This document shows, piece after piece, positions 37,313-39,994 of a stretch of DNA of 64,000 bases. The stretch spans positions 2,046,001 to 2,110,000 of the forward strand of contig NZ_LR594036.1 in NCBI RefSeq assembly GCF_901542335.1, read 5' to 3'. This stretch comes from Streptococcus porcinus (GTDB taxonomy: Bacteria; Bacillota; Bacilli; Lactobacillales; Streptococcaceae). Every line of letters begins with the position of its first letter. Within the stretch, counting starts at the first letter, position 1. The notes beneath the pieces are model-generated. The model was given only the letters and a program-made list of their open reading frames with translations, was not told the DNA's origin and searched no databases. The position numbers and the translations under genes were made by a program.

Positions 37313-38026
37313 ATGAAGAAGTATGAATATATATTTAAAGATTTAGAATCAAAAATATCCAAAGGAATTTATGCTATTGATGATTTTTTACCACCTGAAA
37401 ACGAATTAAGTAAAAAATATAAGGCTAGCCGAGACACTATTCGCAAGGCCCTCGCTCTCTTAGTTAAAGATGGCTTGGTTAAGAAGCAACAAGGTCGAGG
37501 AACTCAAGTTATCAAACACCATCAAATCCTTTTTCCTATTTCAGAGTTAACAAGCTACCAAGAATTGGTTACCTATTTTAATATGGACTCTAAAACCAAT
37601 GTTATTGCTATTGACAAGCTAATTGTGGATAATGATATGTCAAAATTGACAGGTTTCCCTCCTCGTTCCATTATTTGGCGAATTACCCGTCAAAGAGTAG
37701 TTGATGGTATTGCCTCTGTCCTAGATGTTGATTACCTCAGCAAGGATATTGTACCAACTATCAGTCGTGAAGTTGCTGAAAAGTCTCTTTACCAATACTT
37801 AGAGAATGATTTAAACTTAGCTATTGATTTTGCCTTAAAAGAAGTTACCATCGATCAAGTCAATGACAAAGATAAAATTTTACTAGATCTAGGATCAGAC
37901 CGCCACCTTGTTTCTGTTAAATCAAAAGTTTACCTCTCATCTAATGAACAATTTCAATTTACTGAGAGCCGCCATAAGTTAGAAAAATTTAAATTTGTTG
38001 ATTTTGCGAGACGCAAACCAAAATAA
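37313..38026 (+). CDS. treR: GntR/HutC-family regulator of the trehalose genes
   Basis: This is a 237-residue repressor. The N-terminal winged helix (PPENELSKKYKASRDTIRKALALL, then GRGTQV) is GntR type. The C-terminal UTRA ligand domain includes IIWRITRQRVVDG. It probably binds trehalose 6-phosphate. It is transcribed away from treP-treC with a 217-bp shared region. That region holds two TTGTAT-containing half-palindromes (near 37213 and 37269) that could be operators, though this is weak. Confidence 0.88.
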   Translation: MKKYEYIFKDLESKISKGIYAIDDFLPPENELSKKYKASRDTIRKALALLVKDGLVKKQQGRGTQVIKHHQILFPISELTSYQELVTYFNMDSKTNVIAIDKLIVDNDMSKLTGFPPRSIIWRITRQRVVDGIASVLDVDYLSKDIVPTISREVAEKSLYQYLENDLNLAIDFALKEVTIDQVNDKDKILLDLGSDRHLVSVKSKVYLSSNEQFQFTESRHKLEKFKFVDFARRKPK

Positions 38027-38188: not shown

Positions 38189-38451
38189 ATGACTGATAAA
38201 ATGACTATCCCAACAGCATCATGGATTACACTAGGAGATTATCATCATCACTTGGCTTTCAACCACTGGAGAGAGTCTAAGCCTAGAGTCCAAGAATCTA
38301 CCAGTCCTGGGTTGAACTTCTTAACAATTACGTTTGAAGCCCAACTCACCTTCGAAGACAGCTATCAAAAAGCGCAACTCCAAGGTATGTGAAAGCAGCC
38401 TCAAAAACCAAGAACTCCTTTACTTCCATGGGGATTCCTACGGTAACATTA
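38162..38451 (+). pseudogene. Broken VOC-family (CatE-like) dioxygenase gene
   Basis: From 38189 one frame reads TIPTASWITLGDYHHHLAFNHW and PGLNFLTITFE, the C-terminal domain of CatE-like VOC proteins, up to a stop at 38390. Shifting frame gives LYFHGDSYGNISNGIL, the family's final metal-ligand segment. The N-terminal two thirds are missing. It is the second broken VOC-superfamily gene in the window. No function is expected. Confidence 0.7.
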
Positions 38452-38490
38452 GCAACGGAATACTTAAGCTATAAAAGTTTTGACCTTTTC

Positions 38491-38520
38491 TTGACAGAAA
38501 GGCTTTTTCTTTACTACAAT
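38491..38520 (+). promoter_or_regulatory. yaaA promoter predicting a leaderless message
   Basis: TTGACA (38491-38496) and TACAAT (38515-38520) are 18 bp apart. The expected start, seven bases past the -10, is 38527, exactly the A of the yaaA ATG. Confidence 0.7.
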
Positions 38521-38526
38521 AACTAT

Positions 38527-39258
38527 ATGTTAACTTTTCTAATCCCAACAGCTAAAGAAATGAAAATTCCCAAGCAGAGTTTTCCTCCTAATATTCCAGA
38601 AAATAGCCAAGCTATCATAGATCAATTAGCCTCCTTATCATTCAAAGAACTGGCTTTGGCTTATAAATTAAAGGAAACTGCATGCCAAAAAGAGTTTGAT
38701 AGAATTCAGTCCATCAAAAAAGGACAAGCTCCAACTTATCCTGCATATCAGCTCTTTAATGGCCTCATGTATCGTCACCTGGACCGGGAACATTTATCTC
38801 AACAAGAGACAAACTATCTCCTCACGCATACTTTTATAACATCATCTCTATATGGTGTTATTCCAATGGATTTTCCCATCGCCGAACATCGCCTAGATTT
38901 TCAAACAAAACTTAAAATCAATGGAAAATCCTTAAAGCATTACTGGCGTGATGATTATGACTATTTCGTGAATGACAGGGAAATCATTATTTCACTTTTA
39001 TCTAGTGAATTTGAAGAAGTTTTCAGCAAAGATAATAACAACTTGTGGATAAGTCTCTTGTTTTTAGAAGAAAAAGCCGGGAGCCTAAGAAGTCATTCAA
39101 CCATCTCTAAAAAGGGTCGCGGAGACTTTCTTAAAGCTTGTGCTCAGTACAATTGTCAAGACATTCAAGATCTTAGAAACCTTGATTTTAAAGGATTCAC
39201 CTTCAGTGAAGAGCAATCAAATTGCCATAAACTTGTCTATATCAAAAAAGAGGCCTAG
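38527..39258 (+). CDS. yaaA: Peroxide stress protein YaaA (UPF0246)
   Basis: This is a 243-residue protein of the YaaA/DUF328 family (MLTFLIPTAKEMK, then AYQLFNGLMYRHLD). In E. coli YaaA limits free iron during peroxide stress. The start at 38527 matches the family N-terminus; an ORF from 38389 runs into the broken VOC gene. No ribosome binding site lies ahead of this ATG, and the promoter suggests a leaderless mRNA. The C-terminal part contains a perfect DnaA box (39044-39052). Confidence 0.9.
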   Translation: MLTFLIPTAKEMKIPKQSFPPNIPENSQAIIDQLASLSFKELALAYKLKETACQKEFDRIQSIKKGQAPTYPAYQLFNGLMYRHLDREHLSQQETNYLLTHTFITSSLYGVIPMDFPIAEHRLDFQTKLKINGKSLKHYWRDDYDYFVNDREIIISLLSSEFEEVFSKDNNNLWISLLFLEEKAGSLRSHSTISKKGRGDFLKACAQYNCQDIQDLRNLDFKGFTFSEEQSNCHKLVYIKKEA

Positions 39259-39269
39259 GCCTCTTTTTG
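39244..39269 (+). terminator. yaaA terminator
   Basis: AAAAAGAGGCC and GGCCTCTTTTT form a perfect stem around a two-base centre at the yaaA stop codon, with a T run. Confidence 0.85.
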
Positions 39270-39273
39270 ATGT

Positions 39274-39325
39274 TTATCCCCATGCCTGGATTTTATTCAC
39301 AGGTTGTGGATAAGTGTGAGGATAA
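39274..39325. promoter_or_regulatory. Cluster of four DnaA boxes between yaaA and nrdG
   Basis: TTATCCCCA (39274-39282), TTATTCACA (39293-39301), TGTGGATAA (39305-39313, a perfect box in reverse) and TGAGGATAA (39317-39325, reverse) match TTATCCACA at 8, 8, 9 and 8 of 9 positions. Start-to-start spacings are 19, 12 and 12 bp. It lies between convergent genes, so promoter control is unlikely. Confidence 0.7.
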
Positions 39326-39344
39326 ATCCTACTTATTTAGACTT

Positions 39345-39377
39345 AGAGCTATTTTTAATTATCTTAAAAATAGCTCT
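39345..39377 (-). terminator. Hairpin after nrdG
   Basis: AGAGCTATTTTTAA and TTAAAAATAGCTCT form a 14-base perfect stem around a five-base loop just past the nrdG stop. The T tract is inside the stem rather than after it, so strength is unclear. Confidence 0.6.
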
Positions 39378-39379
39378 TC

Positions 39380-39994
39380 TTAGATAAGTTTATCTCGACT
39401 GACCTGCTCGAAGGTTTGGGCACCATCATTTAGTTTTGACCAAATCACCACACAATTACGTTTCAAAGATTCTTGGACATCTATGATTCTTTGATTTGAG
39501 GATCCTCGAAACTGCAACATGAGATTTTTTTTAGTGATGTCGAAGCGACCATCCACCAAAATATCAATTAAGGACAGTAGCTCTAACTTATCGGGTGTTT
39601 CTTCCATCATTTCCTCCCAAGTATAACCAGTCCATGACCAAATATCTTTTTTGGGCAGTTCTTTTCGAATCCGTTTAATGAGTGGCAACAGTATGCCAGT
39701 GTTTAAAAAGGGTTCCCCACCTAAAAGTGTCAAACCTTGTACATAGGGTTGAGCTAAATCAGTCATAATTTGCTCTTCTAGCTCCTTGGTATATGGCATT
39801 CCAGCATTAAACGACCAAGTTGCAGCATTATAACAGCCTTTACAGTGAAACATACAACCTGATACATAGAGAGAATTACGCACGCCCTCTCCATCAACAA
39901 AATTGAATGCTTTATAATCGATAATGCGCCCCTTACTGAGTTCGTGTGATTGCCACTCCTTTGGTTTTGGATTATTCCAGCATTTCTCTGACAT
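39380..39994 (-). CDS. nrdG: Anaerobic ribonucleotide reductase activase
   Basis: This is a 204-residue radical SAM enzyme. The cluster-binding Cys47, Cys51 and Cys54 are in SGCMFHCKGCYN, and TLLGGEPF is the SAM-binding glycine motif. It uses S-adenosylmethionine to make the glycyl radical on NrdD under anaerobic conditions. It is the last gene of the minus-strand nrdD operon, six bases after the acetyltransferase gene. Confidence 0.96.
   Translation of the reverse strand: MSEKCWNNPKPKEWQSHELSKGRIIDYKAFNFVDGEGVRNSLYVSGCMFHCKGCYNAATWSFNAGMPYTKELEEQIMTDLAQPYVQGLTLLGGEPFLNTGILLPLIKRIRKELPKKDIWSWTGYTWEEMMEETPDKLELLSLIDILVDGRFDITKKNLMLQFRGSSNQRIIDVQESLKRNCVVIWSKLNDGAQTFEQVSRDKLI

Follow-up and report, generated by a model that had tools for sequence, protein, structure and literature searches.

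In Bacillus, the removal of six DnaA-box clusters is reported to cause early initiation of replication, strongly only when all six are gone, and elsewhere the same review states that no Bacillus clusters with a significant part in initiation control have been identified (PMC5295017). In Streptomyces coelicolor, a DnaA-box cluster near oriC is mentioned as a repressor of untimely initiation (PMC4585315). Across 59 Escherichia coli genomes, the relative distance of datA and DARS from oriC is conserved, and datA activity requires boxes 2 and 3 plus an IHF site (PMC4585315). DARS1 and DARS2 of E. coli are positioned between oriC and terC, DARS2 requires IHF and Fis, and the direction of box I is the reverse of that of boxes II and III, with the head-to-head contact as a prominent feature (PMC5742627). 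The number, orientation, and spacing of boxes affect both the binding and the nucleotide preference of Bacillus DnaA in vitro (PMC4447404). Pneumococcal initiation is described in terms of DnaA, YabA, and CcrZ (PMC8387234, PMC12014288). A term search for "DnaA box" and "titrat" gave no match in the CcrZ paper (PMC8387234) and the HU paper (PMC12014288). Judged by titles and the start of abstracts, the literature within the scope of our search, which left out most subscription papers and all preprints, contained nothing on Streptococcus DnaA-box clusters outside oriC.

A DnaA-box array between yaaA and nrdG

The window, i.e., the whole 64,000-nucleotide stretch analysed here, covers bases 2046001-2110000 of the 2,160,767-base chromosome of Streptococcus porcinus, whose base 1 is the start of dnaA (1-1353). 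The DnaA-box cluster (2085274-2085325 on the chromosome) is located 75.5 kb left of dnaA, and its distance from oriC of approximately 75 kb corresponds to 3.5% of the chromosome. Direct reading bore out the sequence-only reading of four boxes, one perfect and three with one mismatch, whose starts at 39274, 39293, 39305, and 39317 are spaced by 19, 12, and 12 bp, with the first two on the plus strand and the last two on the minus strand; the fifth, perfect box that it placed inside yaaA is likewise present and lies on the minus strand (Table 1). Three of the boxes form a unit in which box III, box II, and the inverted box I follow one another at 12-bp steps. The host DnaA contains GGRDHSTVLH, which we take to be the DnaA box-binding signature.

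Table 1. Features of the DnaA-box array and its surroundings, numbered from the first base of the window.
Feature	Position	Strand	Remarks
DnaA box IV, TTATCCCCA	39274..39282	+	Outer box; one mismatch; at most one mismatch at equal offset in 11/15 related loci
DnaA box I, TTATTCACA	39293..39301	+	One mismatch; inverted partner of box II
DnaA box II, TTATCCACA	39305..39313	-	Perfect; centre of unit; perfect in 15/15 related loci (alignment anchored on box II)
DnaA box III, TTATCCTCA	39317..39325	-	One mismatch; 12 bp from box II, direction shared
Distal DnaA box V	39044..39052	-	Perfect; inside yaaA; 261 bp from box II
yaaA (peroxide stress protein YaaA)	38389..39258	+	NCBIfam YaaA, curated model
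nrdG (anaerobic ribonucleotide reductase activating protein)	39380..39994	-	TIGR02491, curated model
Terminator-like hairpin of yaaA	39245..39268	+	Adjoins cluster
Stable hairpin stretch just after nrdG	39336..39384	-	Other side of cluster; -16.6 kcal/mol, z -4.65

The flanking genes are convergent, and their 3' ends face the gap holding the cluster. No promoter-like sites were found across 39150-39450. The terminator listing contained no terminator in the hairpin stretch past nrdG. By NrdG, S. pseudoporcinus is the closest named relative (97%). The start of yaaA as listed (38389-38526) lies about 46 codons ahead of the first residue matched by the YaaA model (residue 48), and the true start is probably later. 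DnaA also acts as a transcription factor, as the title of PMC4447404 likewise says, and nrdD-nrdG make DNA precursors, both of which would fit DnaA-driven transcriptional control of nrdG or yaaA from this site. Such control is nevertheless very improbable, considering that both neighbouring genes end towards the cluster, that a terminator-like site and a hairpin flank it, that no promoter-like sites were found there, and that the box pair is found beside or inside unrelated genes elsewhere.

Single boxes are only mildly above background in the window, with 32 at up to one mismatch versus 20.5 in shuffles (32 was reached by 2 of 100 shuffles), but the cluster is not a product of chance. The whole genome contains 24 perfect boxes, and 777 at up to one mismatch compared with 667 for the reversed motif. 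A density of three or more boxes per 60 bp was reached only at this locus and at oriC in the 454,767 bp scanned around oriC (of 2.16 Mb), and in none of 20 Markov simulations that preserved the dinucleotide composition. The sequence-only reading had named many equal clusters elsewhere as evidence against itself, and such counting in 60-bp windows gave only oriC within the 455 kb around it. A chance cluster in AT-rich DNA, for which the mild excess of single boxes (32 versus 20.5) could be adduced, thus has a negligible probability; the 0/20 simulations speak against it, and it is already contradicted by the conservation of spacing, orientation, and codons described below. A further perfect box inside treR (the trehalose repressor gene; 37624-37632, minus strand), 1681 bp from box II, was dropped as a part of the element; it is absent from all nine named related loci (2.5 kb scanned on each side).

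As in the DnaA-box clusters (DBCs) of Bacillus subtilis (Okumura et al. 2012, as given in the review PMC5295017), several boxes lie outside but near oriC in a low-GC Gram-positive bacterium; here they form a cluster beyond chance at -75.5 kb of 2.16 Mb. Bacillus has six such clusters, whereas Streptococcus has a fixed three-box unit recurring across the genus, a difference that concerns layout in outline and not letter by letter.

Conservation beside nrdG and in yaaA

The boxes are conserved in the orthologous gaps of related streptococci, as the sequence-only reading would lead one to expect, but not in all streptococci. An inverted box pair (at most two mismatches in both halves together) is present within 700 bp downstream of nrdG at 17 of 57 named nrdG loci. 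The III-II-I unit is found at nine named loci, from S. penaeicida, S. bovimastitidis, S. didelphis, S. catagoni, S. ictaluri, S. halichoeri, S. uberis, S. phocae, and S. pseudoporcinus. Eight nrdG loci (L030, L031, L032, L033, L036, L072, L078, and L083; S. caballi, S. alactolyticus, S. equinus, S. vicugnae, S. agalactiae, and S. henryi) have the pair in other surroundings. The 40 of 57 loci without a pair in these 700 bp, of which three (L052, L071, and L077) have less than 400 bp of DNA downstream, include all those of S. parasanguinis, S. cristatus, and S. australis and both of Enterococcus.

We aligned 15 related loci (the nine named ones, five from further genomes, and the S. porcinus locus) without gaps, anchored on box II. 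In the core, 24 of 35 columns are invariant, nine of them by construction because a perfect box II served as the anchor, and the flanks have no invariant column (0/48 left and 0/70 right, 0/118 together); the columns between the core and the right flank, which hold box IV, belong to neither count. The core consensus of the 15 loci is TTATCCtCA-n-AC-TTATCCACA-nnn-TGTg-n-ATAA-gt, in which TGT and ATAA of the complement of box I are invariant in 15/15 loci. A third box (at most two mismatches) stands 12 bp out in all 15 loci of this nrdG-yaaA group.

The distance from box V to box II is 259-264 bp in 13 of the 15 loci and 407 bp in L035, and box V is absent in L038. Among 25 YaaA orthologues, the 14 most similar have the codons (T/C)TG TGG ATA AGT at box V and the other 11 do not, a split that is free of selection, while the 14 sequences in the codon alignment were chosen for holding box V. 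In six genes of the window, ATA accounts for 11% of isoleucine codons and AGT for 19% of serine codons. Only 7 of 74 invariant residues (Met and Trp excluded) keep one codon throughout the 14 sequences; the isoleucine and serine of box V are two of these seven, and the longest invariant run in the codon alignment is TGTGGATAAGT. Because the rare ATA codon and the AGT codon of box V are fixed in these 14, box V seems to be kept at the DNA level, and the YaaA protein sequence would follow the DNA site.

Recurrence of the box pair at a kept distance from oriC

The core pattern TTATCCACANNNTGTGNATAA occurs exactly in at least 99 of 147 Streptococcus genomes and, with up to one mismatch, in all 46 single-contig Streptococcus genomes, many of the genomes in these counts being close relatives and not independent. 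The reversed control pattern had no match in any genome of the two sets. We defined matches more than 10 kb from dnaA as off-origin and merged matches within 1 kb, which yielded 41 off-origin loci in 33 of the 46 single-contig genomes. The range 35-110 kb left of dnaA, picked after seeing these data, holds 29 of the 41 loci, compared with 3.6% expected. Within 250 kb of dnaA, 36 of the 41 loci are on the left and two on the right (+60 and +129 kb); the three further out are at -292, +292, and +906 kb. The sites outside the -110 to -35 kb range are thus found at -141 to -292, +60, +129, +292, and +906 kb. The sites at +60 and +129 kb share neighbours with left-hand sites of relatives, the pattern expected from an inversion around oriC. 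Some genomes have two pairs 159-225 bp apart, an arrangement recalling the cluster and box V at 261 bp.

Thirteen of the 46 single-contig genomes (including G145, G062, G104, G048, and G046) have the pair at oriC only, and their off-origin site seems to have been lost, changed, or never gained. Scanning 120 kb to the left in G145, G126, and G129, which lack an off-origin pair, revealed no cluster except oriC. Among the matches listed for draft genomes with an exact pair on the dnaA contig (n = 40), 19 genomes have it at oriC only and 21 have an off-origin pair; 20 of the 22 off-origin loci among these matches lie at -110 to -35 kb and all 22 are left of dnaA. Linkage on one contig biases such counts towards short distances and towards neither side, and the positions in G138 and G140 assume that the contig end adjoins base 1.

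On the G000 chromosome, five parS-like sites (at most two mismatches to the parS consensus) are located at -3 to -44 kb from dnaA; all five sites in the 455 kb scanned are left of oriC, on the side of the DnaA cluster, and this flank may be a special domain. The element could organise the origin domain for segregation or folding by way of DnaA and ParB/SMC and not set the timing of initiation. We consider this improbable, since no parS-like site is present at the cluster and its sequence is that of a DnaA-box array.

The box pair occurs in at least six named gene contexts, assigned by family searches and by comparing one representative with the other loci by tblastn. These are nrdG (L085, L090, L092, L118, L120, L122-L124, and L137), alpha-L-fucosidase (18 loci, of which L112 also has an AdcA-like zinc protein), the interval separating a GH92 glycosidase from an amino acid permease (five loci), the inside of a 5-FTHF cyclo-ligase gene (six loci), a neighbourhood of glycosyltransferase, phosphoesterase, and GHKL kinase (six loci), and a RecD-like helicase gene (four loci). 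Further loci (L099, L105, L179, L084, and L087) match none of the six. The yaaA-nrdG gap, which the sequence-only reading gave as the context, is therefore too narrow a frame, and gene context was rejected as a conserved trait, the pair standing beside or inside unrelated genes in other streptococci.

Median distances from dnaA in the single-contig genomes are -81 kb for nrdG, -80 kb for fucosidase, -43 kb for GH92, -41 kb for the kinase, -49 kb for the glycosyltransferase, -46 kb for the G023 site outside the six, -158 kb for cyclo-ligase, and -234 kb for RecD. Counting the kinase and glycosyltransferase sites as one context because they are neighbours, five of seven contexts fall in the range, for which hand arithmetic gives a chance of about 1e-6 with the range chosen post hoc. 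Before this merging, the binomial chance for six of eight contexts was 6e-8, again for a range chosen post hoc. Since the gene contexts differ, it is the position and not the neighbour that is kept.

Four loci in the GH92 glycosidase/permease gap (L093, L131, L143, and L145) have paired inverted dyads approximately 220 bp apart at -42 to -47 kb (+60 kb in G002). In L084 and L087 (1501-1521), the box pair is within a coding sequence that, from its appearance, presumably encodes a pullulanase, at -47 and -64 kb from dnaA. The idea that these two pairs are coding coincidences was dropped because of these positions; neither has a third box at 12 bp.

Of 96 off-origin pairs, 54 (54 of 94 without L084 and L087) have a same-direction third box, with up to two mismatches, at an outward offset of exactly 12 bp. 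The next commonest offsets among the 94 pairs are 23 bp (18 pairs), 19 bp (13), and 10 and 21 bp (12 each), and opposite-direction extra boxes are almost absent (five in all). At oriC, none of 23 pairs has a same-direction third box at 12 bp, and one has an opposite-direction box there. The third box at 12 bp therefore marks off-origin pairs and not oriC pairs. Beyond the nrdG-yaaA group, it is present in 24/36 fucosidase, 6/6 cyclo-ligase, and 4/6 RecD-like pairs and in L105. It is rare in the other nrdG-type group (2/13; this includes L099, from whose 3 kb NrdG is absent), the GH92 group (1/10), and the glycosyltransferase/kinase group (1/6), and G023 has none.

The streptococcal oriC shares the inverted pair type and the 12-bp spacing with the cluster, as might be expected if the latter were a spare or former replication origin. 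The oriC pairs, however, flank dnaA and lack the third box (0/23), whereas the cluster has no adjoining dnaA or dnaN, which leaves such an origin very improbable.

In a draw of 198 Lactobacillales genomes, 19 of the 171 non-Streptococcus genomes have the exact pair, each with one dnaA match. The pair is on the dnaA contig in 10 of the 19, two of these at oriC and eight at -438, -312, -79, +76, +99, +111, +189, and +518 kb (contig ends unjoined). Among 18 Lactobacillales loci read (L153-L170), L157 alone shows the full three-box unit, its third box lying 12 bp ahead of box II; in L170, a box is also 12 bp out but on the opposite side of the pair. Several of these loci are within larger arrays of up to 12 boxes.

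Comparison with datA and DARS and a possible role in initiation

The locus is a conserved, recurring, origin-proximal DnaA-box array with fixed spacing and direction. Its pair type also occurs in E. coli datA, where an inverted pair (TTATTCACA-3-TGTGGATGA) is spaced by 12 bp, though without the adjoining third box (at up to two mismatches) of the streptococcal unit. datA has a conserved relative position near oriC, and the streptococcal sites are likewise one-armed and keep their distance; they stand, however, in several gene contexts and are not one orthologous site. To our knowledge, IHF is absent from streptococci.

The order of the boxes points to another system. In MG1655, read directly, DARS1 and DARS2 both consist of a box, 14 bp, an inverted box, 12 bp, and an inverted box. 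Boxes I, II, and III are thus ordered and directed as in the streptococcal unit, with box I opposed to the other two, and the II-III spacing is 12 bp in both; box II is perfect in DARS1, as in the streptococcal unit, and has one mismatch in DARS2. On a DARS-like site, ADP-DnaA would assemble on boxes I-III, lose its ADP, and be recharged, and initiation would be promoted. The shared order and the head-to-head contact that is prominent in DARS (PMC5742627) would therefore suggest activation and count against titration. On the other hand, the I-II spacing is 12 bp and not the 14 bp of DARS1 and DARS2, the cluster is near oriC and not between oriC and terC, and the papers listed in the search for DARS in Streptococcus, reviews by their titles, did not concern a streptococcal site in title or abstract. 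We regard a DARS-like function as possible but doubtful. The comparison of the sequence-only reading with Bacillus clusters holds for the origin-proximal position, while the three-box order resembles a DARS core as well.

The reading we prefer, to which we give a probability of roughly 60%, is that the locus serves as a dedicated origin-proximal DnaA-binding element that would help set the time of replication initiation. By analogy with the Bacillus clusters, its effect is most likely sink-like, and its sign would be negative. DnaA would bind the three-box unit, with a short row of DnaA on boxes III and II running head on into box I. Box IV would join this assembly, and box V, approximately 260 bp away, may join it as well, perhaps by a loop; binding, assembly, and looping are predicted here from the sequence. 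Because only 75 kb (3.5% of the chromosome) lies between oriC and the site, the latter would be duplicated soon after initiation and could take up DnaA just when re-initiation must be prevented.

A more far-reaching proposal is a genus-wide Gram-positive control element resembling a DARS core, which changes the nucleotide state or assembly of DnaA beyond a passive sink, is mobile in gene context, and is kept or re-created by selection 35-110 kb left of oriC. We think this rather unlikely.

If the locus is a dedicated DnaA-binding element, such a cis-acting site would add a layer of control beyond DnaA, YabA, and CcrZ in pneumococcus and could help explain how streptococci avoid re-initiation. 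Retention of this distance from oriC despite changing neighbours amounts to a natural experiment and suggests selection on gene dosage soon after initiation.
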